Shown one piece after another: positions 2,652 to 32,718 of a DNA stretch of 33,852 nt; within the stretch, counting starts at the first letter, position 1, and each line of letters starts with the position of its first letter. This stretch comes from a virus. The notes beneath the pieces were generated by a model. It searched no databases. It worked only from the letters and a program-made list of their open reading frames with translations, and was not told the DNA's origin. The stretch covers positions 1 to 33,852 of IMG/VR virus record IMGVR_UViG_3300031951_000684. One strand, given 5' to 3'. The translations under genes were made by a program, and so were the position numbers.

Positions 2652-3758
2652 ATGGCAGTAACAGTACAGATCAAGCACCGTGCAGCAGGTGGCGGCGGCG
2701 CAGGCAGCCCGACTGGTACTTCGCTTCCCGGCGAATTGGCAGTCAACTTCGACACAGGAGTAGGCGGTACGCCAGAGCTCTGGGCCAGTACGGGCGTTGC
2801 ATGGGCGCGGGTTAACCCCACTGCGGCCGCACCGACTGTTGGCACCACCGCGCTCCCGGGTGGCGCGGCCGGTTCCATCGCTGGCATCGGCACGGCGTGG
2901 ACAAACTTGGCATCTAAGCCCACCGACCCGATCATCATTGCCAGCTTTGCGGGCACGGCATACGTTAAGACGGGTGCTGGCGGTGCGGACGCGGATTGGA
3001 CGGCTCTAGGCTCGGCCACGGCATTTGCGACTGGCCCTGAGACGCATACGGGCACGGTCACCAACAAGGCAGTCAGCCCAGCTGGATTGCTGGCTGCTGG
3101 CCTTGCGGCCCCCACCGCCACGCCTGCCGCCGACGCGGACTACATCGTGCGCCTGTCGTCCACCGGCAAGATCGCCTCGGGGTTCATCAACTCCACGGGC
3201 ACCCCGGCTGCCACCCCGGCGAACGACGCCACTAAGCTCGTCGCCCTTGGTGCGGACGGCAAGGTGAACAACGGGTTACTCCACACACTGTCAACGTCCG
3301 TAGGTGCTGGGTCTGCTGGCAGCATTCCGGTGCTGAATGCCGCAGGCAAGATCGACGCCTCGATGATTGCGCTGACCGCGCTTTCCTTCAAGGGTAACCT
3401 CGACCTCACCGCAGCATACGCGGCCCCCGGCACGGCTCCGGTAGCGGGCGAGCTCTACACCGTCGCCAAGACAGGTTCTGTGAACGCTTCGTGGGCCGCA
3501 CAATTTGTTACGGGTCAGGCACCGACCGCCGTGACAGTCGGTGACCTTTTGATCTACGACGGCACCAAATTTCATCACGTTGCAAACACGGTTGATCTTT
3601 CGGGGGCCGTGCAAAAGGCAGGGGCAAACGCTATCGCCGCCGGGATGACGATGACGTGGGCGGTGCCTGCGGCCGCTGGCGTGGTGACGATCATCGACGG
3701 TGGCGACCCGGCCAAGGCAAAGCTCAATAACGTGTCTATCGACTGCGGGGTGTTCTGA
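2652..3758 (+). CDS. Tail fibre protein with tropism-determinant-like N-terminus
   Basis: A 368-aa protein rich in Ala, Gly, Thr and Val. The N-terminus (VTVQIKHRAAGG, then LPGELAVNFDTGVGGTPELW) matches the N-terminal unit of phage fibre and major-tropism-determinant proteins, in which 'GElavn' is typical. The middle contains repeated 'GKIASGFINSTGTP', 'GKVNNGLLHTLST' and 'GKIDASMIALTAL' units, each a likely shaft repeat. The start lies 11 nt after the previous stop, with GGAG at 2640-2643. It is probably a structural part of the fibre network. No enzymatic motif was seen. Confidence 0.8.
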   Translation: MAVTVQIKHRAAGGGGAGSPTGTSLPGELAVNFDTGVGGTPELWASTGVAWARVNPTAAAPTVGTTALPGGAAGSIAGIGTAWTNLASKPTDPIIIASFAGTAYVKTGAGGADADWTALGSATAFATGPETHTGTVTNKAVSPAGLLAAGLAAPTATPAADADYIVRLSSTGKIASGFINSTGTPAATPANDATKLVALGADGKVNNGLLHTLSTSVGAGSAGSIPVLNAAGKIDASMIALTALSFKGNLDLTAAYAAPGTAPVAGELYTVAKTGSVNASWAAQFVTGQAPTAVTVGDLLIYDGTKFHHVANTVDLSGAVQKAGANAIAAGMTMTWAVPAAAGVVTIIDGGDPAKAKLNNVSIDCGVF

Positions 3759-3761
3759 GCG

Positions 3762-5252
3762 ATGAGCACCATCATCAAGATCCTCCGCAGCCTCGTCAAA
3801 GGCAAGCGCCCCACGGGCCGCTCCGAGGGTGAGGTGTGGGTGAACGAGGCTGACAAGCAGTTCGGCTTCATTGACTCCACGGGCGCGGCGCAGGATCTGC
3901 TGGCCGTGCGGAGGTTCTCGGCCACATCCGACTACGCCATCGGCGACATCGTGATGCAGGCGGGCAAGCTCTACCGCGCGACCAAGGCCGTCACGGCAGG
4001 CGCGTTCACGGCGGCGGATTGGGATGCACTGCCTGCCAACGACAAATACCTTCCGCTGACGGGCGGGACGCTGACGGGCGCGTTGGGAATTGGGACTACG
4101 GCTCTCACTGGGTACAACCTTAACATCAATCGCAAGCTGGCGGGCGCAGCAAAAGCCGTCAGCATCAGAAATGTTTACGTCGTTGGGGCAGATGTGATCA
4201 CGAGTGCGATCTCGTATGTATCTCAACCAACGACAGAAGCAGCGGCTTACACGCTTGACAGTGCGGTGGCGTACTTGGCTGACGGCGTGGTTGTTGGTGC
4301 CGGAAGTGCGGTCACAAACCAGCGCGGATTACACGTAAACAACTTTACGGGCGCTGCAAACAATTACGCAGTATCGACAAACGTTCCCGTCGGCACAAAC
4401 AACAACTGGAACTTCTACGCTCAAGGCACCGCTCCAAACTACATGGCGGGCCCGTTGGGGATTGGGACTACGGTTGTGGCGGGGTGTAACCTACGCTTAA
4501 CGAGGCAGTTAACTGGGTCAACCACAGTAGCTAGTGTCCAAAGCGCCGCCACAGTTTCCGGTGATGTGTCCGTTTCTGCTTACGGGTTTAGCTCGTTAAT
4601 CAACACTGACGCTGCCGTTTTCACTCTTCCTGAGATCTATCACTTTGCTGCTAGGGGAGGTGCTGTAGGTGCCGGAAGCACGGTCGCGACCCAGTACGGC
4701 TTTTTTGCGGGACAGGGGTTGTCAGGCGCAGATAGCAATATAGGGTTTTTGGCGAATATCAAAGAAAAAGGGACGCAGGACTGGAACTTCTACGCTAAGA
4801 GTGCCGCTCCCAACGCCTACGCAGGCAAAAGCAGCTTCGGTGCTGTCACAGTCCCCACCGAAACCATCGACGCCACCGGCAACATTGCCGCCACGGGCTC
4901 GATGCTCTCCTCCGGCAATGCAGACGGTGTGGGCTATAAGACGGGCGCAGGCGGCACCACCACGCAGGCCACCAGCCGTACTACGGGCGTCACGTTAAAC
5001 GCGGTATGCGGGTCCATCGTGCTGGCACCCGCGGCAGGCCTCGCGACCTATCAGACCTTCACCGTCAGAAACGTCGTAGTCGCAGACACAGACGTTGTGC
5101 ATGTCTCGCAGAAGAGCGGGACTGACAAGTACATCGTCATGGTGACACGTGTCGCGGCAGGCGCGTTTGATGTGACCTTCGCCACCACGGGCGGCACTAC
5201 AACCGAGCAGCCCGAGTTCAACTTTGCCATCATGCGCGCCGTCGCGGCGTAA
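3762..5252 (+). CDS. Tail fibre protein with duplicated shaft domain
   Basis: A 496-aa protein. Residues ~1-45 resemble the GEVWVNEADKQFGFID head of phage fibres. Residues ~50-90 (YAIGDIVMQAGKLYRATKAV, then WDALP) look like a carbohydrate-binding module of the CBM5/12-like type often fused to fibres. LPLTGGTLTGALGIGTT then opens two tandem ~120-residue units, each beginning GIGTT and ending NWNFYAQGTAPNYMAG or DWNFYAKSAAPNAYAG. The C-terminal ~110 residues (GYKTGAGGTTTQATSRTTGV, then EFNFAIMRAVAA) match a common prophage fibre tip. It likely binds a host surface glycan; the exact receptor is unknown. Confidence 0.85.
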   Translation: MSTIIKILRSLVKGKRPTGRSEGEVWVNEADKQFGFIDSTGAAQDLLAVRRFSATSDYAIGDIVMQAGKLYRATKAVTAGAFTAADWDALPANDKYLPLTGGTLTGALGIGTTALTGYNLNINRKLAGAAKAVSIRNVYVVGADVITSAISYVSQPTTEAAAYTLDSAVAYLADGVVVGAGSAVTNQRGLHVNNFTGAANNYAVSTNVPVGTNNNWNFYAQGTAPNYMAGPLGIGTTVVAGCNLRLTRQLTGSTTVASVQSAATVSGDVSVSAYGFSSLINTDAAVFTLPEIYHFAARGGAVGAGSTVATQYGFFAGQGLSGADSNIGFLANIKEKGTQDWNFYAKSAAPNAYAGKSSFGAVTVPTETIDATGNIAATGSMLSSGNADGVGYKTGAGGTTTQATSRTTGVTLNAVCGSIVLAPAAGLATYQTFTVRNVVVADTDVVHVSQKSGTDKYIVMVTRVAAGAFDVTFATTGGTTTEQPEFNFAIMRAVAA

Positions 5253-17305: not shown

Positions 17306-17341
17306 TCCCGTGCTGGCCCCCGTGAGGGCCAGACCGTGAAT
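17306..17341 (-). repeat. 3' stem-loop element, copy 1 (after methyltransferase)
   Basis: Read on the minus strand, 3 nt after the methyltransferase stop: ATTCACGGT, stem CTGGCCC, loop TCACGG, stem GGGCCAG, CACGGGA. Copies at 32160-32195 (-) and 25937-25973 (+) keep the flanks and loop but have different, still paired stems. There is no T-run, so it is not a classical terminator. Role unknown; see findings. Confidence 0.8.
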
Positions 17342-17344
17342 GCC

Positions 17345-19141
17345 TCAGGCCTGCAGCGCGGCAATTCGCCTGCCGATCCACGCCATCACCGGCACGGCCA
17401 TGCTGTTCCCCAAAGCCTTGTATCGCGGGCCATCCGGGCACTGGCTGGCGGGCTTGCCTCGGTACGGGATGGCGGTGAAGTTGTCGGGGAAGCCCTGCAG
17501 GCGCTCGCACTCCCTTACGGTAAGACGCCGGACCATCATTCCAGAGGCTACTCCCTGCGTTGCATAGGTATCGACGGCGTATGAAGTCCCATCATCGTTC
17601 CAGCCCCTGCCGTTTTGTTGTTTTTCGACCGCCCTCACATCTTGAATTGCAATCGCTGGTGGATGCGCTCCAGCGGCCAATGGGCGCGGCACCATCACGG
17701 TCGGCCCAACCGTCGGGCTTGACCCGGACGTTCCCATCGTCGCGGCCACATCCCCTGTGATCAGACCGTTGTAGCAGTCTGTGCCGATTGCCACGGCCAC
17801 CGAATGCCCGTCCGTGTCAAGCGGCCCCGTCATGTCGCCGTACTGAACCACGTCAGACTGACGAGCGTCGAAAGCGTGGGCAACCAACATCGGCCCGGCA
17901 CTGGTGTCGCTGCTGTCGGGCTGTTTGCCGTAGTTGCTGGTCATGCACGGTGCCACTGCCGGCACAAAAGCGTGGACTGGTACACGCGGCGTCCCCCGCC
18001 CCGTGCCGTCCTCGCTGGCATCAAACCCCGCACCACGGAGGCTGTGGGCCACATCCCCTGTGGGGTGCGCGACTAAAAGGCTTCCGCTGGTCACGGCGGA
18101 GTTGCCGTTCCAGCTCCTGCCGTATGACGCCAATAAGCAGTCGGCCGCCTCCTGAAAGGCCGCCGGCCCTCCTGTCTGGCTTGCTGTGTTTACCGTCTTA
18201 TCGCCGTGCAGGGTAGATGCCACGGCAACCACCGACCCTGTGGCTATATCGTTGCGAGACGTCAACGTTTTGGAAACGTCCCCCGTTTCTACTTGGTTGT
18301 AAGCATCAAAGGCAATAGGAACCCCGGCAACCTCCACGGGGATCAGGTAACCCTGATCTGCGTCCTGCCTGCCCATCGCGCCCGCGTTCAGGCATAAGCT
18401 TAGGGACGGCAAATATCCTGCCGGTGTAGGCGTCCTGTCCGTTGTGCCCCCCCCCATGTGAGCGCCATCTGTCAACGCGCCGACCGTTTGCGGGATCAAC
18501 CCGCCATCGCAGTCGAAGTCGGTTCCGAGGCCACCGCCCGCAGTGCTGCGGCTAGGGATGGTGGGAGCAGCTTTCCCCGCTTCTCGGCGCGGCGCAGGAT
18601 TCCCCGACAGGCTGTCGCGCTCAAAAAGAACCGCCGCGGCACGTCGCCAGTCTCCAGCGTGTCCGACAACGAACACACGGCGGCGGCGCTGGGCCACTCC
18701 GAAATACTGAGCGTCAAGAACTCGGTAGGCGAACCCATACCCGAGCTCGCCCAGCATCCCGAGGAAGGAGCCAAAGTCCCGTCCTCCGTTTGATGACAGA
18801 ACTCCGGGGACGTTCTCCCAAACCAGCCACTCGGGCCGTAGGCGTTCAGCAAGCGCACCGAACCCCAGCATGAGGTTGCCACGCGGGTCTGAAAGTCCTT
18901 TTCGGAGTCCTGCGACTGAGAAGGATTGGCAGGGAGTTCCTCCGACGAGAACATCGATATCTGCATAGTCGCCTCGCTGAATTGTGGTGAAGTCGCCGTG
19001 AAGCGGAACGTTCGGGTAGTGGTGAGCAAGAACCGCCCGGGGGAACGGGTCAATCTCAGAGAAGAAAGCAGGCTCCCAGCCGAGCGGGTGCCATGCTGCA
19101 GTAGCTGCCTCGATGCCAGAGCAGACGCTTCCGTATCGCAT
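17345..19141 (-). CDS. C5 DNA cytosine methyltransferase
   Basis: A 598-aa protein. ATG 19141 is chosen because TTTAGGAG lies just upstream and the protein then begins MRYGSVCSGIEAATAAW (motif I); an open frame to 19327 would add 62 residues with no support. Motif IV has the catalytic Cys71 in GGTPCQSFS, motif VI is WENVPG (~108-113), motif VIII is QRRRRVFVV (~151-159), and motif X is YKALGNSMAVPVMAWIG near the C-terminus. About 350 residues separate motif VIII from the ERLQGFP segment, far more than in compact enzymes, and contain degenerate TGDV repeats. It likely methylates phage DNA against host restriction; the target is unknown. Confidence 0.95.
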   Translation of the reverse strand: MRYGSVCSGIEAATAAWHPLGWEPAFFSEIDPFPRAVLAHHYPNVPLHGDFTTIQRGDYADIDVLVGGTPCQSFSVAGLRKGLSDPRGNLMLGFGALAERLRPEWLVWENVPGVLSSNGGRDFGSFLGMLGELGYGFAYRVLDAQYFGVAQRRRRVFVVGHAGDWRRAAAVLFERDSLSGNPAPRREAGKAAPTIPSRSTAGGGLGTDFDCDGGLIPQTVGALTDGAHMGGGTTDRTPTPAGYLPSLSLCLNAGAMGRQDADQGYLIPVEVAGVPIAFDAYNQVETGDVSKTLTSRNDIATGSVVAVASTLHGDKTVNTASQTGGPAAFQEAADCLLASYGRSWNGNSAVTSGSLLVAHPTGDVAHSLRGAGFDASEDGTGRGTPRVPVHAFVPAVAPCMTSNYGKQPDSSDTSAGPMLVAHAFDARQSDVVQYGDMTGPLDTDGHSVAVAIGTDCYNGLITGDVAATMGTSGSSPTVGPTVMVPRPLAAGAHPPAIAIQDVRAVEKQQNGRGWNDDGTSYAVDTYATQGVASGMMVRRLTVRECERLQGFPDNFTAIPYRGKPASQCPDGPRYKALGNSMAVPVMAWIGRRIAALQA

Positions 19142-19167
19142 TGCCAGTCTCCTAAACCGTGAAGGTA

Positions 19168-19383
19168 TCAGCGGGAATGCAGCTTGGCCGTGCGCTCGCG
19201 CACCGCGTCCAGTTCTGCCCAGAGCTTGCCGGTGTACGGCGTGCGCTCGGAGTGCAGCCTCAGCGCGGCGTAAATGTCCGCCATTGCCCGCTTGCAAACA
19301 TCTAGCGTGACGTTGGCCGCTCCCCACTGGGCGCGGTAGATCGGGGCGTAGCAGGCGTAGGCCTCTTCGTAGTTGCGGTGCAT
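19168..19383 (-). CDS. Small protein upstream of the methyltransferase
   Basis: A 71-aa protein, MHRNYEEAYACYAPIYRAQW and then mostly helical (CKRAMADIYAALRLHSERTP, ELDAVRERTAKLHSR). The ATG is preceded by GAGGACACCGAG, one of the repeated leader sequences of this phage. It is the first gene behind promoter 19428-19456 and lies 26 nt before the methyltransferase, so the two are probably co-transcribed. Function not recognised. It might support or regulate the methyltransferase, but only the neighbourhood suggests that. Confidence 0.75.
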   Translation of the reverse strand: MHRNYEEAYACYAPIYRAQWGAANVTLDVCKRAMADIYAALRLHSERTPYTGKLWAELDAVRERTAKLHSR

Positions 19384-19401
19384 CTCGGTGTCCTCGGTTA
19401 G

Positions 19402-19418
19402 GCCGTCAACGCGACGGC
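19402..19418 (-). other. 5' UTR hairpin, cassette A
   Basis: Minus strand: GCCGTC, loop GCGTT, GACGGC, between the promoter -10 and the GAGGACACC leader. The same position in cassettes at 32597-32614 (-) and 25652-25668 (+) holds a hairpin with a different but complementary stem. Confidence 0.7.
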
Positions 19419-19427
19419 ACGGGGAGG

Positions 19428-19456
19428 AAGATACACCCGCCCGCGAGGGAGTGCAA
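19428..19456 (-). promoter_or_regulatory. Promoter of methyltransferase operon (cassette A)
   Basis: Minus strand: TTGCAC (-35, 19456-19451), 17 nt, TATCTT (-10, 19433-19428). Transcription would start near 19421, giving a ~38-nt leader to the ATG at 19383. The same -35 with 17-nt spacing occurs at 32624-32652 (-), 22251-22279 (+) and 25615-25643 (+). Confidence 0.75.
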
Positions 19457-19464
19457 CAGGGTGC

Positions 19465-19481
19465 TAGACCATTTTGGTCTA
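19465..19481. promoter_or_regulatory. 17-nt palindrome, candidate operator A
   Basis: TAGACC-ATTTT-GGTCTA, a perfect 6-bp inverted repeat around a 5-nt centre, 8 nt upstream of the cassette A -35 box. Related imperfect copies stand at 22223-22239 and 32662-32678 at nearly the same distance from their promoters (13 of 17 positions match each). It abuts the stop codon of the 57-aa gene. Confidence 0.65.
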
Positions 19482-19655
19482 TCAGGCTGCGCTCTTATGC
19501 CGGTGTACGCACCGCACCTGAGGGCGTGGCACGGGCAGGTGGACGGCCAGCATCGATCCTGCCTTCAGGCACTCCGACTCGGAGGTGAAGCGCAGGGGCG
19601 TGGTGTTGACCATGGGCAGGCCGTTCAGGAGCGTGATGATGACGAGCTCGAACAT
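19482..19655 (-). CDS. Small phage protein (57 aa), unknown function
   Basis: Starts MFELVIITLLNGLPMVNTTP, continues LRFTSESECLKAGSML and ends RCVHRHKSAA. The layout (hydrophobic N-terminus, 'TTP.rF.s...C..AG', late 'RCV') matches short proteins common in phage accessory regions, though none has a known function. GAGGAT lies upstream with a ~7-8 nt spacing. It begins 2 nt after the stop of the 88-aa gene and ends directly against palindrome 19465-19481. The N-terminus could be a signal or short membrane segment. Confidence 0.7.
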   Translation of the reverse strand: MFELVIITLLNGLPMVNTTPLRFTSESECLKAGSMLAVHLPVPRPQVRCVHRHKSAA

Positions 19656-19657
19656 GG

Positions 19658-19924
19658 TCAGATCCTCGACCGGGCGGCGTGGACAATGGCGAGCTCTTCC
19701 ATCTCGCGCTGTTGCTTGAGGTTGGCCTGATCGACTTCTCGCTGTTGCTTCTTGAGCGCGCGCATGCCTTGCTTGAATTCGCTCTGGCGCTGCCGGAACT
19801 CGCGCTGGTGTTGCGGGTCCGCATCGTATTTCTTCTGGTTTGCCTCGACCTGTTTCCAGAATGGTGATCGAGTAGAGGCGCGGCGCTTTTCCGGGGGCGG
19901 CTTGGGAGGTTGTTTAGATTTCAT
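19658..19924 (-). CDS. Highly charged coiled-coil protein
   Basis: An 88-aa protein. The first ~25 residues are basic and Pro-rich (KSKQPPKPPPEKRRASTRSP); the rest is a Gln/Lys/Arg/Glu-rich helix (EFRQRQSEFKQGMRALKKQQ) expected to form a coiled coil. The ATG overlaps the stop of the homing endonuclease gene (TCAT on +), so translation may be coupled. Function not recognised; composition fits nucleic-acid binding or a scaffold-like role. Confidence 0.65.
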   Translation of the reverse strand: MKSKQPPKPPPEKRRASTRSPFWKQVEANQKKYDADPQHQREFRQRQSEFKQGMRALKKQQREVDQANLKQQREMEELAIVHAARSRI

Positions 19925-20742
19925 GCGTCTGCGCGACGGCGTGCCCAGTAAGTGCGGCGTGCTTCAGCCAGCTTAGCCCGCGTCTCTGGCGATATAACAC
20001 GGTTACGCAGTGCCTCGGACATCTTGGCGCGTGTCTCTGCAGAGCGGGTACGGCCGGTCTGTGCCGCAGACATCTTGGCGCGCGCCTCTGCTGACACAAC
20101 ACGACCACTGGCTGCCTCGGACAGCTTGGCCCGCGCCTCTGGCGATATACCACGGTTACGCAGTGCCTCGGATATTTTGGCCCGCGTCTCTGCAGAGTGG
20201 GCATAGCCACGCCTTCCCACAACCATGGCAGCCCGCGCCTCTGGCGATATACCACGGCTGCGGCTTGCCTCGGACAGCTTGGCCCGCGCCTCTGGCGATC
20301 TAAAACGGGCGCGTTGTGCCTCGGACATTTTGGCGCGTGTCTCGGGTGACCTGTTGCGGAGTGCCTCGGACATCTTGGCCCGCGTCTCTGCAGAGCGGGT
20401 ACGGCCGGTCTGTGCGGCAGACATCTTGGTACGCGTTTGGGGCAGCATGCCCTTGTATCGAGCGACTCCACCCCATCTACGGGCGCGGTACGCATCAAGC
20501 TTTGTGCTGGTGTGGGACATCAACAGCACGGCGTGCCAAAACCCATGCGCCTTTGCTAGCAGCAAGTGCGCCATGTAGTGGTCGCTGTAGGACAGCGTGA
20601 TCATGTTGTCAGCATCGTCTGTCCCGCCCAGTGCGCGAGGGACAACGTGGTGCCGTTCGGCGTATTCACCCGAGACGATCAGTGCCGCCTCACGGGCGCG
20701 ACGGTCTGCGATGAATTCGTTGTAGATGCGCTTGTAGTCCAT
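19921..20742 (-). CDS. HNH homing endonuclease with NUMOD3 repeat array
   Basis: A 273-aa protein from ATG 20742, chosen because AAGGAA is 6 nt upstream and relatives begin with a similar 'MxYkkIYn' motif; ATGs at 20760 and 20793 would add 6 or 17 residues. HNH: HH at 31-32 (ERHHVVPRALGGTDDADNMI), Asn46, His55 and His59 (SDHYMAHLLL). Residues ~103-270 are about ten ~17-residue NUMOD3-like repeats (RAKMSEALRNR-SPET), which in homing enzymes contact DNA. The enzyme cuts DNA lacking the insert and so spreads itself. It is free-standing, next to the hairpin-rich gap. Ten repeats is unusually many. Confidence 0.9.
   Translation of the reverse strand: MDYKRIYNEFIADRRAREAALIVSGEYAERHHVVPRALGGTDDADNMITLSYSDHYMAHLLLAKAHGFWHAVLLMSHTSTKLDAYRARRWGGVARYKGMLPQTRTKMSAAQTGRTRSAETRAKMSEALRNRSPETRAKMSEAQRARFRSPEARAKLSEASRSRGISPEARAAMVVGRRGYAHSAETRAKISEALRNRGISPEARAKLSEAASGRVVSAEARAKMSAAQTGRTRSAETRAKMSEALRNRVISPETRAKLAEARRTYWARRRADA
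19935..20440 (-). repeat. NUMOD3-coding tandem repeats
   Basis: About ten degenerate units of roughly 42-51 bp inside the endonuclease gene, recognisable on + by recurring 'GCCTCGGACATCTTGGC' and 'CGCGCCTCTGGCGATAT'. Stretches 20010-20079 and 20360-20429 are nearly identical over ~70 bp, indicating recent duplication of two units. They are coding repeats and not a CRISPR array. Confidence 0.85.
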
Positions 20743-20760
20743 GTATGGTTCCTTGGGCAT

Positions 20761-21150
20761 AGCGATGCCCTTTTCCCCCTGACCTGTCCACAAGTCAGTG
20801 CAGTCTCTCGGACTGCTTACAGGTACTCAGTGTCTCCCCCGTAGACCAGCGGTCCTTCGCTGGCGACCTCCCGCAATGGGCGTCAGGGTGCCGGTTGTCA
20901 GGGCGCGACAGTGCCGGGCTTTGGTGGTCGAGCATGGGTTGGTTGCGTTGTTCACCCGGGTCAACCATACGCAATCGAATGGCCGGGGTGATCGGGGGAC
21001 TTGGCAGCTGCTGGGGGTCTGGTAGACTTCCGCCAACGGTCGCGTCGAGTTCGCGATCACAGCCTGAGGGGATTGGCGTCCCGCTCAGGTCACCGTAGGG
21101 TAGTGCAACACTGCCCTGTGGGCAAGAACCCCGGACTCACCTCCGGGGTT
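20761..21150 (+). ncRNA. Candidate structured non-coding RNA ending in a terminator
   Basis: No convincing gene occupies 20743-21246. Hairpins seen: 20800-20816 (GCAGTC/GACTGC), 20846-20863 (CCAGCG/CGCTGG), 20891-20917 (CCGG.TGTC/GACA.CCGG), interleaved GGTTG/CAACC and TTGCGT/ACGCAA in 20937-20974, 21038-21058 (GGTCGCG/CGCGATC), 21063-21089 (CCTGAGGGGA/TCCCgCTCAGG), 21097-21117 (AGGGTAGTG/CACTGCCCT) and a terminator at 21127-21150. The T-run puts the transcript on +. No + gene lies upstream for 3.5 kb, so the terminator most likely ends an RNA made here, or a leader of the early genes. The 5' end is uncertain; a weak TTGCGT-N17-CATACG lies at 20943-20971. Confidence 0.45.
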
Positions 21151-21158
21151 TTTTGTTT
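21127..21158 (+). terminator. Intrinsic terminator before early region
   Basis: Stem AACCCCGGA (21127-21135) and TCCGGGGTT (21142-21150), six-base loop CTCACC, followed by TTTTTT (21149-21154) and more T. It is a strong rho-independent terminator for + transcripts; the minus side lacks a good T-run. It stands ~90 nt before the first early + gene. Confidence 0.9.
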
Positions 21159-21191
21159 CTGGGGTTAGAACAAATCGATCACCAAGAAGCA

Positions 21192-21221
21192 TTGTCACCT
21201 TGTTGCGCCATTGGGTAAGGT
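21192..21221 (+). promoter_or_regulatory. Possible early promoter
   Basis: TTGTCA (21192-21197), 18 nt, TAAGGT (21216-21221), just after the terminator and ahead of the first early gene. Matches are moderate. A perfect inverted repeat GGTGTC-GGTTT-GACACC (21219-21235) overlaps the -10 and the start region and ends at the GGAGG leader, so it could be an operator or a translation-control hairpin. Confidence 0.4.
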
Positions 21222-21246
21222 GTCGGTTTGACACCGGAGGCCTGAG

Positions 21247-21474
21247 ATGGACAAGCAAGTACTGATTCACCGGCTGTGCAGCCGACCCGGGAAGACTGGG
21301 CGCGTAAGTGCCAAGTGTGTGGAGTGTATCTACGACGAGCGAGCTGCGGGATACGGAACGTGGCGCCAGCAGACGGAGGCCTGCACGGCGACCGCGTGCC
21401 CCCTGTGGCCCATCCGACCCCTGAGCGAGGGCGCGAAGGACGAGGACGAGCTGTGCGACTCGCTTACCGACTAG
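21247..21474 (+). CDS. Small Cys-rich early phage protein
   Basis: A 75-aa protein with GGAGG at 21236-21240. It has a CVECIYD motif (CxxC) followed by YGTWRQQTEACTATACPLWP and RPLSEG. This Cys spacing and the 'GTWRqQ.eaCt...CpLw..RP' phrase match a zinc-binding small protein common in early regions of phages. Function unknown; perhaps a Zn-dependent DNA- or protein-binding factor. It overlaps the next reading frame by 22 nt. Confidence 0.75.
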   Translation: MDKQVLIHRLCSRPGKTGRVSAKCVECIYDERAAGYGTWRQQTEACTATACPLWPIRPLSEGAKDEDELCDSLTD

Positions 21475-21658: not shown

Positions 21659-22222
21659 ATGGATCAGCACCTGCACCCGATCCCGGCAGACCTCGCTGAT
21701 GAGGCGGAATCCCTCTGGCAGGCCAACGCCGGGGTGTACAAGGGCTCCCTGACCGCCGGAGAGGGCCTGAGAGCCGGGTTGATTGGCGAGGTGCTGGTCA
21801 TGGAGCAACTGCGCCGACACGGCCTGCCTGTGGAGCGTACAGGAGGCCCTGACAACGATCTTCTGGTGCTCGGGCGCAGGGTAGAGGTGAAGACCACCAG
21901 ACAAGCAGGAACGCGGGTCCGCCCGAGCTATAACGCCCACGTCGAGGATCGATCCCACCGGGGGCTGCGGCAGCAAGAATGCGATGCCTACGTGTTCTGC
22001 AGAGTGGACTATGACCACCTGTACGGGGCGATCCTCGGCTGGGATCTGCCATTCAACATTACGGGCCGCAAGGGGCGCTGGGTGCTGCAAAAAGCAGGCA
22101 CCGAGATTATGGGCTCGGGCAAGCCCGCCCCGGCGGACAACTGGGTGCTGCCGGTGAGCCGCCTGCCTTCGATCACCCTCCTGCCCGACTACATCCGGCA
22201 CTGGCATAAGAGCGCGGCCTGA
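21659..22222 (+). CDS. PD-(D/E)XK-like putative nuclease
   Basis: A 187-aa protein from ATG 21659; an in-frame ATG at 21620 would add 13 residues overlapping the upstream gene. Residues ~40-80 (GLIGEVLVMEQLRRHG, then DNDLLVLGRRVEVKTTR) show the restriction-enzyme-like core: Glu44 on a helix, Asp67 and the Glu76-x-Lys78 pair. The remainder has Trp/Tyr-rich strands (ECDAYVFCRVDYDHLYGAIL). No specificity domain could be named. It may act in replication, recombination or host DNA attack; catalytic residues look complete. Confidence 0.65.
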   Translation: MDQHLHPIPADLADEAESLWQANAGVYKGSLTAGEGLRAGLIGEVLVMEQLRRHGLPVERTGGPDNDLLVLGRRVEVKTTRQAGTRVRPSYNAHVEDRSHRGLRQQECDAYVFCRVDYDHLYGAILGWDLPFNITGRKGRWVLQKAGTEIMGSGKPAPADNWVLPVSRLPSITLLPDYIRHWHKSAA

Positions 22223-22239
22223 TATAGCGAAATGTTCTA
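22223..22239. promoter_or_regulatory. 17-nt palindrome-like element, candidate operator B
   Basis: TATAGCGAAATGTTCTA, 11 nt before the -35 of the 22251 promoter. It matches 13 of 17 positions of the perfect palindrome at 19465-19481 (read on minus) and keeps its TCTA end. The inverted repeat itself is weak here. Confidence 0.5.
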
Positions 22240-22250
22240 AGCGCACCCTG

Positions 22251-22279
22251 TTGCACATTCCTGCGCCAAGGGGTAGGAT
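22251..22279 (+). promoter_or_regulatory. Early promoter (cassette B)
   Basis: TTGCAC (22251-22256), 17 nt, TAGGAT (22274-22279). The start would be near 22286, ~43 nt before the next ATG. The preceding CACCCTG and the -35 are shared with cassette A. A weaker hairpin (GGTTGGG/CCC.GACC) lies in the leader. Confidence 0.7.
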
Positions 22280-22328
22280 GGGCGTGTGGTTGGGGATTCG
22301 CCCTGACCCGCACACTGGACACAGACAC

Positions 22329-22697
22329 ATGACCCTTTACGCAAACATTGCTACCCGCTCTGAACTCCTCTTCCGCCCCGAGTCGGAGGAGCTTGCCCGC
22401 CGCTTCTTCGGTGACGCCGTGGTCGATGCCCTGCCCCGCTTCGTGCGCGGGAAGCACAAGGGCGCGATCAAAGGGATGATCCGCTACGACCGCGTCCTGA
22501 AGGGCGGCTGGGTCCGCACCGGCAACGCTGCCTACGGCGGGAAAGCCCCGGGATACGTCGAGGACCGCGTCGGCCGCATCATCAAGGCCGAGATCTGCAC
22601 CGCGCCGTGGGGCGAGGAGCCCGAGGTTCTGCACACGTGGAACATCACTGCGGCTGACCTCAGCTTCAAGTCGCGCACTGAGGGGCTGGTGGCATGA
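22329..22697 (+). CDS. Early protein of unknown function
   Basis: A 122-aa protein. ATG 22329 follows GGACACAGACAC, a variant of the recurring leader. Segments: TLYANIATRSELLFRPESEE, FVRGKHKGAIKGMIRYDRVL, WVRTGNAAYGGKAPGYVEDR. It is basic in the centre with aromatic residues and no recognised domain. It leads the operon that runs through the annealase and exonuclease genes, so it may belong to the replication/recombination set. That is inferred from position. Confidence 0.7.
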   Translation: MTLYANIATRSELLFRPESEELARRFFGDAVVDALPRFVRGKHKGAIKGMIRYDRVLKGGWVRTGNAAYGGKAPGYVEDRVGRIIKAEICTAPWGEEPEVLHTWNITAADLSFKSRTEGLVA

Positions 22698-28865: not shown

Positions 28866-29345
28866 ATGGCAGGTCGGAAGGTCGCGTACACCAGTGCGCG
28901 GGGGAAGAGTGAGGCATTGCAGCGGATCGTGGTGGGTATAGAGACGCCCGATCACCTGACCGAGGAGGAGGGTGAGCTGTTCCAGATGACCGTGGCGAGC
29001 TTGCCCATGGCGGTGTGGCTGCCGGACATGGTGCAGCGGGCGGCGCAGATGGCGCGGCACTTGGCGGCGGAGAAGCGCCTGATGGATCAGGTCGCCGAGA
29101 AGGGTGATGTGATCGAGCGGGAGGATGGCAGACTGGTAGTCAACCCGGCGCACACGGCCCTGATGAGCCACGGCGGTGCCATCCACCGGCTCCGTAGCCA
29201 GCTGGGGCTGACAACGACAGACAGGTCCACCTCGGCCAAGGTGAACCCGGCCACGCTCAGGCAGGAGGCGATCAGCGAGCACGGGGTGCGGGAGCGGCTG
29301 ATCGAGGATCCCATCAAGGCGGGCCTGCTTGCCCGGGCAAACTGA
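28866..29345 (+). CDS. terS: Terminase small subunit (P27-like)
   Basis: A 159-aa protein from ATG 28866, with GGAGGG at 28854-28859. An open frame extends to 28596 but crosses the repeat region and lacks support. TPDHLTEEEGELFQMTVASL, a central helix MVQRAAQMARHLAAEKRLMD, a short acidic/Val strand pair and HRLRSQLGLTTTDRS match P27-type small subunits, which end their core with 'lg Ltp..r'. It recognises cos/pac DNA and hands it to the large subunit. The large subunit starts 1 nt later. Confidence 0.85.
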   Translation: MAGRKVAYTSARGKSEALQRIVVGIETPDHLTEEEGELFQMTVASLPMAVWLPDMVQRAAQMARHLAAEKRLMDQVAEKGDVIEREDGRLVVNPAHTALMSHGGAIHRLRSQLGLTTTDRSTSAKVNPATLRQEAISEHGVRERLIEDPIKAGLLARAN

Positions 29346-29346
29346 C

Positions 29347-30879
29347 ATGGCCAAAAAGATCAGTGATGGCGAGATGGTCATCCGGTTTGTGGAGGAGTAC
29401 CTGCGGGTGCCGGAAGGGGCGCACGTGGGCAAGCCGCTGAAGCTCCTGCCCTTCCAGAAGCGGTTTATCCGGGAGATCTACGACAACCCGCACGGGACGC
29501 GGCGGGCGTATATGTGCATCGCCCGGAAGAACGGAAAATCAGCCCTCACGGCCGCGATTATGCTGGCGCACCTGATCGGCCCCCGGGCCATTCACAACTC
29601 GCAGATTGTGTGCGGCGCGATGTCCCGGGATCAGGCCTCGCTGATCTGGAACCTTGCCGTGAAGATGCTGCGCCTGAACCCCGAGCTCGAAGGCCTCGCG
29701 CACGTCATTCCCAGCAAGAAGATGATCATCGGCATGGCCCGGAACGTAGAGTTCAAGGCCCTTGCCAGTGACGGCACCACGGCCCACGGACTCTCGCCTG
29801 TTCTGGCCATCTTGGATGAGGTCGGGCAGATCGTCGGCCCCTCCAGCCCGTTTGTGGAGGCCATCACCACCTCGCAGGGTGCGCACGCGGAGCCGCTCCT
29901 GATCGCCCTGTCCACCAGCGCCCCGTCTGACGGCGACATGTGGTCGATGTGGCTGGATGACGCCGAGCGCAGTTCGGACCCGCACACCGTGGCGCACGTC
30001 TACAAGGCGGCAGAGGGCTGCGACCTGATGGACGAGGCGCAGTGGCGCGCGGCCAACCCGGCCCTCGGCACGTTCCTGTCGGAGGAGTTTGTCCGGCAGA
30101 CGCTCAGCCGGGCGCAACGCCTGCCCTCGGAGGAGGCGTCCCAGCGCAACCTGCTGCTGAACCAGCGGATCTCGATGGACCGCCTCGCATTCTCGCCCTC
30201 GGCATGGAAGGCCTGCGCCATGCCGACAGGCCCCGAGGTGTTTCGCGGCCGCACGGTCTACATGGGGCTCGACCTGTCTGCCAAGAATGACCTTACGGCC
30301 GCCGTGCTGGCCTGTGAGGACGATGACGGGGTCATACAGCTACTCCCCATCGTGTTCTGCCCCACAAGCGGCATAGACGACCGTGGGCAGCGCGACAGGG
30401 CTCCCTACAGGATGTGGGTCGATCAGGGGTATCTGATCCCGGTTGGCTCGGCCACGATGGACTACGACCAGATCGCGCAGGCCATCGGCGACTACCTCTG
30501 GCGGGAGGAGATCGTTGTCGAGGAGGTCCACTACGACAAGGCGCTGATCACCCACTTCCAAGCGGCCTGCCAGAGGGCGAGCGTGCTGCAGGAGGCGCGC
30601 TGGATCGGGGTGCCGCAGTTCTTCAAGGAGGTCGGGATCCGCCTCGCCAGCCTGCAGGGGCTGGTGCTGGACAAGCGGGTCGCGCACGGCGGTCACCCGC
30701 TACTGAACTATGCGGTGGCCAATGCGGTTGCGGTGCAGGGGCGGGAGGGAATTTCGGCCTTGGACAAGAAGAAGTCCACGGCAAGGATCGATCCCCTAGC
30801 AGCTGCGGTCTTCGCCGCGTGGCCGCTAGGGGAGGGTCGAGCCGGTGCCCAGTTCGACGTGCTGTCGATGATCGGCTAG
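29347..30879 (+). CDS. terL: Terminase large subunit
   Basis: A 510-aa protein from ATG 29347. ATPase: CIARKNGKSALTAA (Walker A, ~58-70), LAILDEVGQ (Walker B, ~153-161) and LLIALSTSAPSD (coupling motif). Nuclease: YMGLDLSAKNDLTAAVLA gives the first Asp; later EEVHYDKALIT and DPLAAAVFAAW supply the remaining acidic residues. It drives DNA into the prohead and cuts it. The sequence is of the HK97/P27 kind. Its stop overlaps that of the opposing 68-aa gene (CTAG at 30876-30879). Confidence 0.95.
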   Translation: MAKKISDGEMVIRFVEEYLRVPEGAHVGKPLKLLPFQKRFIREIYDNPHGTRRAYMCIARKNGKSALTAAIMLAHLIGPRAIHNSQIVCGAMSRDQASLIWNLAVKMLRLNPELEGLAHVIPSKKMIIGMARNVEFKALASDGTTAHGLSPVLAILDEVGQIVGPSSPFVEAITTSQGAHAEPLLIALSTSAPSDGDMWSMWLDDAERSSDPHTVAHVYKAAEGCDLMDEAQWRAANPALGTFLSEEFVRQTLSRAQRLPSEEASQRNLLLNQRISMDRLAFSPSAWKACAMPTGPEVFRGRTVYMGLDLSAKNDLTAAVLACEDDDGVIQLLPIVFCPTSGIDDRGQRDRAPYRMWVDQGYLIPVGSATMDYDQIAQAIGDYLWREEIVVEEVHYDKALITHFQAACQRASVLQEARWIGVPQFFKEVGIRLASLQGLVLDKRVAHGGHPLLNYAVANAVAVQGREGISALDKKKSTARIDPLAAAVFAAWPLGEGRAGAQFDVLSMIG

Positions 30880-31082
30880 GACAGGAGATCCCACTTCACC
30901 CGCTCGGTGTCGAGGATGAAGGCGAAGCGGTCGATGGAGGTGCTCATGGTCTCCTTGAACACCACCGGGCCGAGGGTGCCTGACCACGCCTCGACATGCT
31001 CGCGCATGAAGGCGTCCCCTCGCGGGGAGATTGACTCGGCACTCCAGAAACCCGTGCTCTCACGGCGCAGCAACATATCCAT
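30876..31082 (-). CDS. Small protein of minus cluster, unknown function
   Basis: A 68-aa protein, last in the minus-strand operon. ATG 31082 has GGAG ~8 nt upstream. MDMLLRRESTGFWSAESISP, HVEAWSGTLGPVVFKETMST, SIDRFAFILDTERVKWDLLS. No domain recognised. It ends tail-to-tail with the large terminase gene with overlapping stops, so there is no room for a terminator between them. Confidence 0.6.
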   Translation of the reverse strand: MDMLLRRESTGFWSAESISPRGDAFMREHVEAWSGTLGPVVFKETMSTSIDRFAFILDTERVKWDLLS

Positions 31083-31087
31083 GGCAA

Positions 31088-31270
31088 TTACTCCGTAACG
31101 GTCTTGGGGATTCGCAGGGCTTCACCGGCGGGCACGCCGCGCTCGCGAAGGCCCTCCGACACCAGTGCGATGACAACGTCTGCCACAGAGCGCGAGTGCT
31201 CGATGCCGAGCTTCTCTAGGGCGAACTTCATCTCGGTGGAGACGCGGAAAGTGATCTGGCTGTTACGCAT
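31088..31270 (-). CDS. Ribbon-helix-helix-like regulator
   Basis: A 60-aa protein. ATG 31270 is chosen because GAGGAG is upstream and MRNSQITFRVSTEMKFALEK is then the canonical RHH strand followed by helices (SVADVVIALVSEGLRERG). RHH proteins of this size are dimeric DNA-binding repressors. It might control the minus operon or bind one of the 17-nt palindromes near the promoters; no binding evidence exists. It overlaps the 121-aa gene by 8 nt. Confidence 0.75.
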   Translation of the reverse strand: MRNSQITFRVSTEMKFALEKLGIEHSRSVADVVIALVSEGLRERGVPAGEALRIPKTVTE

Positions 31271-31628
31271 GGCAAGGCTCCTCGACGGTGGTGGTGAGAT
31301 CATCAACGCAGCGCAGGACGGCGTAGCACGCGGCCCAGAGCTCAAAAAGCGGCGAGATATGGTGTCTGCCCTTCAACACGCGCTCGGCCATCTCGAACAG
31401 GGCGCGCGAGTCACGCTGCAAGGTGCGGACAGTCGAGGCGTTGATCGCATCGGAGCGGTCGTGCCAGAAGGTGCTTGCGCTCTGCATATCATGGATCAGG
31501 CGCTCTGCCAGATGCTGCATGGCAGCAGCCTCCGCAGGGTAGCCAAGGGCGATCCAGCGATGCTTGAGCAGCGTGGTGGCGCGCTTTGCGTAGGCCGCGC
31601 CTTCCAGCAGGTGGAGTTGGGTGTTCAT
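31263..31628 (-). CDS. Helical protein of minus cluster, unknown function
   Basis: A 121-aa protein, almost entirely helices: TQLHLLEGAAYAKRATTLLK, AAAMQHLAERLIHDMQSAST, SRALFEMAERVLKGRHHISP. The ATG is preceded by GAGGACACAGAGC, one of the repeated leaders, lying within the end of the 38-aa gene. ATGA overlap with that gene implies coupled translation. Its function is not recognised. Confidence 0.65.
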   Translation of the reverse strand: MNTQLHLLEGAAYAKRATTLLKHRWIALGYPAEAAAMQHLAERLIHDMQSASTFWHDRSDAINASTVRTLQRDSRALFEMAERVLKGRHHISPLFELWAACYAVLRCVDDLTTTVEEPCHA

Positions 31629-31741
31629 GCTCTGTGTCCTCTGTGCTTCGAGTAGCCACGGGATGCGGCTCTCTTACGGTCTACGTGAGTGGCTGCCCGA
31701 TTGACGCGGGCGAATTTGGCTACGGGGTTTCGGGTCTTCAT
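31625..31741 (-). CDS. Short basic protein (38 aa)
   Basis: MKTRNPVAKFARVNRAATHV then DRKRAASRGYSKHRGHRA. The 'MktRNPvAK.ar..nra..h.DrK' beginning matches very short basic proteins common in phages. GAGGACACC precedes the ATG directly. Its stop overlaps the start of the 121-aa gene. The charge suggests nucleic-acid binding, but no activity is known. Confidence 0.75.
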   Translation of the reverse strand: MKTRNPVAKFARVNRAATHVDRKRAASRGYSKHRGHRA

Positions 31742-31752
31742 GGTGTCCTCTG

Positions 31753-32130
31753 TTACGCGAAGCTGATGATTGCGCCGCCGATCTTCCGGCCTTCATGGCG
31801 GCCCTTGTGGCAGTGAAACATGCGGCGGTACTCGATGCGGCCATCCCCCAGAATGCGCATGTAGTGCTCATCGATCCGGGCGCGGCGGAAGGTGGCAAGG
31901 ATCTCGCGCTCTGCCTGATCGAAAGAGCTCACCTCGAAGGCGCGCTCTTCGTTGCCGGACTGGCGCATGATGGTGACAATCAGTTTCCGCTTCCCTTTGC
32001 AGCGTTTGATGGCCTCCTCCCGCGTGGCTGGGGTGGCGTCTCTCATGTCCTGTGCGTAGCAATGCACGATGACGTACCCAACGAGGTAAACGACCGTGCT
32101 GATCAGTACAAAGATTCCTTCTGCGTTCAT
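31753..32130 (-). CDS. Membrane-anchored protein of minus cluster
   Basis: A 125-aa protein. The N-terminus (MNAEGIFVLISTVVYLVGYV then IVHCYA) is one membrane helix, followed by a cytoplasmic-type basic domain (RCKGKRKLIVTIMRQSGNEE, FDQAEREILATFRRARIDEH). The ATG follows GAGGACACTGAC, and the stem-loop 32160-32195 lies between it and the upstream gene. It could be an exclusion or membrane-docked regulator; nothing specific is recognised. Confidence 0.65.
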   Translation of the reverse strand: MNAEGIFVLISTVVYLVGYVIVHCYAQDMRDATPATREEAIKRCKGKRKLIVTIMRQSGNEERAFEVSSFDQAEREILATFRRARIDEHYMRILGDGRIEYRRMFHCHKGRHEGRKIGGAIISFA

Positions 32131-32159
32131 GTCAGTGTCCTCAGGTTGTGGGGAGACAT

Positions 32160-32195
32160 TCCCGTGCTGCGCCCCGCGAGGCGCAGACCGTGAAT
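32160..32195 (-). repeat. 3' stem-loop element, copy 2
   Basis: Minus strand: ATTCACGGT, stem CTGCGCC, loop TCGCGG, stem GGCGCAG, CACGGGA. It begins at the stop codon of the 126-aa gene and is followed by TCTCCCCACAACC and the GAGGACACTGAC leader of the next gene. Compare 17306-17341 (-) and 25937-25973 (+): flanks conserved, stems changed but paired. Confidence 0.8.
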
Positions 32196-32575
32196 TACTC
32201 TGCGAAGCGATCCATCAGTGCGCGCTCGGCCTCGATGCCGCTGCGCTGATAAGCCACCGAGGCGTAGGCCGGATCGATCTCATCCCAATGCGCCAGATTG
32301 ATCTCGCCAGCTGCACGCACCCGCTCGGCCAGCTTCTCGGCAGCGGCCTCGCCTGCGCCCTCCCAATCGCGCTCGACGTAAGCACCGAACTCGGCGTCGA
32401 CGTCGCGCACAACGGCGGCGTTGTTCCAGCGGCGCACGTGAGCCCAGCGGCGACCGTCTGCGGCGGTGGCGATAACGAAGTAAGACTCGCCGATCACCGG
32501 GGTGCCGTCTTCCGGGTGGCGACCTGCGGAGTACTGGTCGAAGGTGACTTCGATCTCAAGGTCGGCTGCGTTCAT
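32195..32575 (-). CDS. First protein of minus cluster, unknown function
   Basis: A 126-aa acidic protein starting at ATG 32575 after GAGGACACCGAC. LEIEVTFDQYSAGRHPEDGT, YFVIATAADGRRWAHVRRWN, then helices (GEAAAEKLAERVRAAGEINL). It appears to be a small alpha/beta domain that occurs alone. It is the first gene behind promoter 32624 and is closed by the stem-loop at 32160. No family could be named. Confidence 0.7.
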   Translation of the reverse strand: MNAADLEIEVTFDQYSAGRHPEDGTPVIGESYFVIATAADGRRWAHVRRWNNAAVVRDVDAEFGAYVERDWEGAGEAAAEKLAERVRAAGEINLAHWDEIDPAYASVAYQRSGIEAERALMDRFAE

Positions 32576-32596
32576 GTCGGTGTCCTCTCGGTTGCG

Positions 32597-32614
32597 GCCA
32601 GCAAGTGCGCTGGC
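32597..32614 (-). other. 5' UTR hairpin, cassette C
   Basis: Minus strand: GCCAGC, loop GCACTT, GCTGGC. Same position as in cassettes A and D; the stem differs from A (GCCGTC/GACGGC) by compensating changes. Confidence 0.7.
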
Positions 32615-32623
32615 ACAGGGAGA

Positions 32624-32652
32624 AAGATACATGGTAGCGCATAGAGGTGCAA
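32624..32652 (-). promoter_or_regulatory. Promoter of minus cluster (cassette C)
   Basis: Minus strand: TTGCAC (32652-32647), 17 nt, TATCTT (32629-32624). Both boxes and the spacing equal cassette A. Start near 32617 gives a ~42-nt leader. It faces away from the + promoter at 32690. Confidence 0.75.
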
Positions 32653-32689: not shown

Positions 32690-32718
32690 TTGACGGTTGC
32701 AAATGGCATAGCTACCAT
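32690..32718 (+). promoter_or_regulatory. Possible promoter of capsid operon
   Basis: TTGACG (32690-32695), 17 nt, TACCAT (32713-32718). The start would be near 32725, ~140 nt before the protease GTG. It is oriented away from the cassette C promoter, and the two -35 boxes are ~38 nt apart. Confidence 0.5.

Follow-up and report, generated by a model that had tools for sequence, protein, structure and literature searches.

The window analyzed here, a virus record of 33,852 bp (G000; GC 63%) that carries no end repeats, has tail, tape-measure, head, and Erf/RecE families that, judged from sequence, point to a lambda/HK97-like siphovirus. Its large terminase gene (terL, 29329–30879) is nearest, among named records, to those of HK97-type phages (47% to HK97). 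The window is a fragment, and no integrase was recognized in it. The IMG/VR record L004 is a near-identical strain, with four differences in 11,023 bp, none of which falls in module B or C (described below), and being near-identical, it supplies no independent evidence. A search with terL as a single protein returned the same strain only. Among bacterial genomes, terL is matched best (55%) on a 4.2-kb contig binned as Sphingomonadaceae, which may serve as a weak lead to the host.

Scanning both strands with a regular expression for TTGCAC-N(16–18)-TAnnnT returned exactly four matches, all with 17-nt spacing; these are precisely the sites that the original prediction had described as copies of one promoter-leader module, and none besides. 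Module A (19381–19456, minus strand) comprises a −35 TTGCAC (19456–19451), a −10 TATCTT (19433–19428), a predicted +1 at 19420/19421, a hairpin (19418–19402), the Shine–Dalgarno (SD) sequence GAGGACAC (19395–19388), and an ATG at 19383; it stands ahead of a 71-aa ORF followed by a C-5 cytosine methyltransferase gene (17345–19327; Pfam DNA_methylase). Module B (32573–32652, minus strand), with −35 at 32652–32647, −10 TATCTT at 32629–32624, predicted +1 at ~32616/32617, hairpin at 32614–32597, SD GAGAGGACAC, and ATG at 32575, heads a minus-strand operon reaching 30876. Module C (25615–25691, plus strand) has its −35 at 25615–25620, −10 TACAGT at 25638–25643, predicted +1 at ~25650, hairpin at 25652–25668, SD at 25676–25683, and ATG at 25689. 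A, B, and C have in common a CTCC tract, a 6-bp hairpin, and GAGGACAC ahead of the ATG. Module D (22251–22331, plus strand), which had been called a looser copy, shares the promoter (TTGCAC-N17-TAGGAT), with GGACAC at 22317 and ATG at 22329, but its sequence has no match to the CTCC, TGCC, and hairpin of the others; near its predicted +1 (22286) it carries a stem of its own, different in sequence and located at the same offset, and 41 nt further upstream are also common to A. For A, B, and C, the −10 assignment places +1 where it had been predicted. The leaders measure 38, 42, 39, and 43 nt, matching the claimed range of 38–43 nt, and the first and second gene products of the units show no mutual relationship, as had also been stated.

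Other features of the window are a candidate non-coding RNA, a possible fifth unit, and a homing-endonuclease-like ORF. The candidate RNA (21001–21157, plus strand) has a putative promoter, TTGGCA-N16-TAGACT (with TG), at 21001–21028 and would be ~125 nt long, with a predicted fold, much more stable than that of shuffles (z −5.75), of four hairpins ending in an intrinsic terminator. The terminator loop, CUCACCUCC, resembles the 16S anti-Shine–Dalgarno sequence, and the RNA has no match in Rfam or phage records. Right after it, the possible fifth unit (21190–21249, plus strand) consists of TTGTCA-N18-TAAGGT, a leader hairpin GGTGTC-GGTTT-GACACC directly before GGAGG, and an ATG at 21247. The ORF at 19921–20793 (minus strand) is HNH/NUMOD3 homing-endonuclease-like; in it, NUMOD3 repeats of 51 nt form a long array in frame.

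The four promoter matches exceed expectation. Loci around related terminases, taken from related phages and prophages and totaling 3.2 Mb, contain the pattern 27 times, which corresponds to 0.28 expected matches in 33.9 kb (P for at least four, ~2e-4). When the pattern is extended by GAGGACAC and ATG, it matches A, B, and C and has no match in 100 shuffles, and blastn aligns A and B with each other at 1.2e-5. The 17-nt spacers are identical at only 6/17 (A/B), 9/17 (A/C), and 7/17 (B/C) positions, or 35–53%. The copies are thus not recent, and they are better explained by selection on the functional positions than by a recent copying event. TTGCAC is a poor −35 compared with TTGACA, and a promoter consensus scan does not report the modules. 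Divergent from B and ahead of the head genes lies a putative promoter, TTGACG-N17-TACCAT (32690–32718, plus strand), suggesting that host sigma-70-type promoters are in use.

The hairpins of A, B, and C are as originally described: their stems (GCCGUC/GACGGC, GCCAGC/GCUGGC, and GCCAGC/GCUGGU) form 6/6 pairs each, with two pairs changed on both sides. The same level of covariation is reached in 58/500 shuffles, and three sequences therefore cannot settle the matter; a 6-bp stem at the hairpin's offset is found at only 5.5% of window positions. Single leaders of A–C do not fold unusually well relative to shuffles (z −0.5, −1.4, and −0.5). When 70 nt of downstream RNA are included, the predicted structures often have the SD's GG in a pair. 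The hairpin is predicted to begin at ~+3 of an RNA that starts (R)UGCC.

The SD sequence itself reaches beyond the modules. GGACAC stands at 10 of 48 gene starts and at none of 17 structural genes (binomial P 1.6e-14, with a gene list that is our own choice of ORFs), and all ten lie within the accessory/early region at 19–33 kb, on both strands. Four GAGGACAC starts, at 23375, 31634, 31743, and 32135, have no promoter in front. Individual examples are GAGGACACCGACATG (23375–23389, plus strand) at the Erf gene start, which lacks a promoter module; CAGGACACTGACATG (25992–26006, plus strand) and GAGGACACTGACATG (32128–32142, minus strand), each at the second gene of its operon (C and B, respectively) and directly after a hairpin described below; and GAGGACACAGAGCATG (31626–31641) and GAGGACACCATG (31739–31750), both on the minus strand. 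Thus, GAGGACAC does precede the ATG in A–C, as had been noted, but it is a genome-wide start motif and not specific to the module.

GAGGACAC/GGACAC is a start-associated sequence (SAS), as this term is applied to cluster K mycobacteriophages. In these phages (TM4, Adephagia), SAS is a short motif a few nucleotides before many starts, extending beyond SD pairing and confined to non-structural genes; extended elements (ESAS) precede a subset of SAS, drive unrelated gene families, and in some cases lie on the other strand (PMC3203893, PMC11373665). In Adephagia, the ESAS are repeats of 46–47 bp that lie upstream of SAS and contain an inverted repeat and SigA-like hexamers spaced by 17–18 bp (PMC11373665). 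The distribution of GGACAC at 10/48 starts and 0/17 structural genes follows the SAS pattern, and the repeated promoter of ESAS has its counterpart in the full module found at three of the ten GGACAC starts, plus D. Unlike cluster K, the inverted repeat here is a 6-bp hairpin within the transcript, vs. a 15–17 bp repeat, copies are fewer (10 and 3–4 vs. 11–19 and about 7), and the window is not a mycobacteriophage. The 13-bp SAS motif GGGATAGGAGCCC is not enriched in the window, where it has one match with two mismatches vs. 1.07 by chance. By analogy, the modules appear to work like ESAS/SAS while not belonging to them by sequence, and the general kind is already known.

The similarity among units is wider than the original prediction had it, extending upstream in A and D and taking in a 3′ hairpin that units A, B, and C have in common. 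A 41-nt block upstream of A (19465–19505, minus strand) is 85% identical to its counterpart upstream of D (22199–22239, plus strand). Within the A block lie the C-terminal codons (HKSAA*) of the upstream ORF and the dyad TAGACCA-AAA-TGGTCTA; the likeness begins inside the last codons of two otherwise different genes, both of which end in HKSAA*. From the sequence, the block is most simply read as a true duplication. The 3′ element, of 35–36 nt, has the form TTCACGG-7 bp stem-CACGGGA, with CACGG repeated in both flanks and the loop. It lies after the methyltransferase stop codon (17306–17340, minus strand), after the first gene of the B operon (32160–32194, minus strand), and after the first gene of the C operon (25938–25973, plus strand), i.e., after a stop codon in each of the three units; the window has no other copy. 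Three of its seven pairs carry changes in both partners, and no covariation is left when the pairing is slid out of register. In the B and C units, the element is followed immediately by the start-associated sequence and the next gene. A reading as intrinsic terminators was rejected, given the lack of a T-run and the continuation of the operon, with an SD directly after the hairpin, in two of three cases. A pattern scan for the element returned eight other contigs; on inspection, a matching stem was absent from all of them.

The B operon (30876–32652, minus strand) lies between terL, which ends at 30879, and a small ORF/protease (32864). It contains a homologue of phrog_1507, and at 31088–31270 there is a weak match to an Arc-like repressor. 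In the nearest relatives (L188, L189, L193–L198, L201, and L204; terL 50–55% to that of the window), nothing but a short spacer or a small ORF lies between terL and the head protease downstream of it, whereas in the window ~1.8 kb of minus-strand DNA headed by module B separates the two. At the same junction, L108 carries a minus-strand NUMOD3/HNH endonuclease 56% identical to that at 19921–20793, and L191, from the same metagenome, carries other cargo, with two ORFs that read from their translation as helix-turn-helix-like. The B operon is therefore an insertion, relative to these relatives, at a cargo site, and the terL/protease junction is such a site in this phage group, an uncultivated HK97-like clade. 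Like phage morons (in the usage of PMC7067206), the operon is inserted between genes that are adjacent in relatives, where it is absent, and it lies on the strand opposite to the late genes with a promoter-like module of its own; unlike them, it comprises several genes. No intrinsic terminator with a T-run was found at its end. As a separate observation, two consecutive cargo genes of L191 have a start-associated repeat of another sequence, GTGAGCATCCCAATGA (3741–3756 and 4052–4067).

We consider it probable that the modules are a phage-specific family of sigma-70-like promoters for host RNA polymerase, joined to leaders with a 5′-terminal hairpin and an extended SD, that give strong, independent expression to scattered units. 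The proposed sequence of events can be rationalized into three steps. (i) Initiation: host RNA polymerase would bind TTGCAC-N17-TAnnnT, the C/T-rich discriminator at −6 to −1 would stay untranscribed, and the RNA would start with (R)UGCC. (ii) Stabilization: the 5′ end would form a 6-bp stem-loop, from ~+3 to +20, that may slow 5′-end-dependent decay, a role we infer from the 5′-terminal stem-loops of E. coli ompA and papA, established as stabilizers in work cited in PMC3997798. (iii) Translation: an A/C-rich stretch with GAGGACACC would follow the stem-loop, ahead of the start codon, and this extended SD context would provide strong, uniform initiation. The methyltransferase, the recombination/early genes, and the inserted cargo would thereby be expressed together, probably under common regulation and independently of the neighboring operon. 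It is possible that a phage-encoded activator or sigma factor acts at the modules. Sigma-54 promoters are recognized by GG/GC at −24/−12; these are absent here, and a sigma-54 reading was rejected.

The original prediction had proposed a mobile or duplicated expression cassette, similar in idea to those of T4-type phages. If mobile, such a cassette would copy itself or be shuffled by recombination between phages. The part concerning related copies within one genome is supported, as are the A/D duplication and the insertion of the B operon. In favor of mobility are this duplication, which breaks inside a gene end, the variable insertion site of the B operon (occupied by a homing endonuclease in L108 and by different cargo in L191), and the pairing of a matching 5′ element with a matching 3′ element in each of units A, B, and C. 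Transfer between phages as a unit is not supported, as no copy was found in any other genome searched. The homologues expected in related phages were not recovered by a covariance model over ~1.7 Mb of related loci (the model, trained on A, B, and C, matches these by construction, and only its negatives elsewhere count). Similarly, no homologue of the module was found in IMG/VR by three patterns, in ~85,000 bacterial and archaeal genomes by pattern, or in 50.7k phage records by blastn, and Rfam returned no match at gathering thresholds and none in the vicinity of the modules. Exact-pattern scans of IMG/VR returned 12 other contigs, none related: L005, L006, L009, L011, and L016 are one repeated sequence, L007, L008, L010, L014, and L017 are AT-rich, and L012 and L015 are single matches. 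Other rejected candidates were L018/L019, in which TTGCAC..TAATGTTCTCCCATGCCGC ahead of an Erf/SSB operon is a chance-level pattern match (12.8 bits with the covariance model); L053 (30.9 bits), a hairpin and SD after a capsid gene with no promoter copy; and L107, whose unrelated structural operon has a single match, to the start motif alone. Moreover, methyltransferase homologues in Caulobacter phage DMCA and Pseudanabaena phage Pan4 sit inside operons without the module, and B gene homologues in L021–L024 stand behind another leader; the module thus did not travel with its genes. Together with the diverged spacers, these results make a mobile cassette unlikely in our view.

In T4-type phages, promoter-early stem-loop (PeSL) cassettes place a promoter and then a stem-loop ahead of accessory genes. 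The arrangement of promoter and stem-loop is alike, and the comparison drawn by the original prediction holds for this general idea only. The window differs in its promoter, in being a siphovirus with an HK97-like terL and siphovirus tail families, and in a module present at no other locus in related phages or collections.

Repeated start modules are themselves a recurrent kind, with phage-specific sequences, as follows from their frequency in related loci and from a second family in another phage. Among 121 related phage/prophage loci of at least 12 kb, nine contain one or more pairs of start-upstream regions that resemble each other in register; in four of these (L133, L144, L176, and L178), what the pair shares is the hairpin of an intrinsic terminator together with an SD. 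Another of the nine, G001 (IMGVR_UViG_3300042542_003512, the record behind L024), in which no related terL was detected, has its own promoter-like family, TTGCAA ... ATCAGCAAC ... GGAGnnACCC-ATG, in front of unrelated genes at 18260–18319 (minus strand), 24652–24710 (minus strand), and 29939–29994 (plus strand). It resembles the window's family in having three copies on both strands, with 57–62 nt from −35 to ATG, and one copy drives a homologue of the B gene; it differs in lacking a 5′ hairpin and in sequence.

At the RNA level, the main rival to the promoter-leader reading is masking of the SD by the CTCC tract. A transcribed CTCC would pair with GAGG around the hairpin and keep translation off until a protein, temperature, or the ribosome opens it; alternatively, the SD would be masked in read-through RNA only, so that only locally started RNAs are translated. 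When begun upstream of +1, all three leaders do fold with an outer stem (UCCUC/GAGGA in A and C; UUUCUC/GAGAGG, altered on both sides, in B) that closes the inner hairpin. However, this stem folds well only with a transcript start at least 5–7 nt upstream of the predicted +1, and RNAs from +1 lack it. The CTCC tract is present in the module order, as originally described, but it falls at −6 to −1 and should be untranscribed if the −10 is right. C/T-rich and G/A-rich tracts also pair easily by composition. We regard SD masking as quite unlikely. Similarly doubtful is the idea that the two covarying RNA elements bracketing A, B, and C form a post-transcriptional regulon under a single phage or host RNA-binding protein; if true, it would be a phage RNA-operon of a kind not described.

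A further alternative places control upstream of and over the −35, at the site of a phage repressor or activator, with the likeness of the leaders secondary. Dyads such as TAGACCAAAATGGTCTA lie just upstream of the −35 (7/8 at A and 6/8 at B and C, figures without a chance control), GGTCTA is common to A and B, and the weak Arc-like match in the B operon could supply a repressor; against this, the dyad sequences differ between copies, and those of C and D are weak, making an operator-controlled regulon improbable. Finally, chance or convergence, by which ordinary promoters and SDs look alike since each element is near the host optimum, accords with the diverged spacers, the many GGACAC starts, and the A/C-rich SD contexts also seen in G001 and L053, but is disfavored, and to our mind very improbable, given a full-module count above that of every shuffle, the blastn match between A and B, and the common TGCC-stem start and shared 3′ element.

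On the promoter-leader reading, a tailed phage outside the mycobacteriophages with SAS/ESAS would provide scattered, unrelated units with a shared promoter-leader and start motif. Such families would be phage-specific, in that the unrelated phage G001 uses a family of its own, of different sequence, ahead of a homologous gene. If 5′-end mapping confirms them, the modules would be compact natural expression parts.
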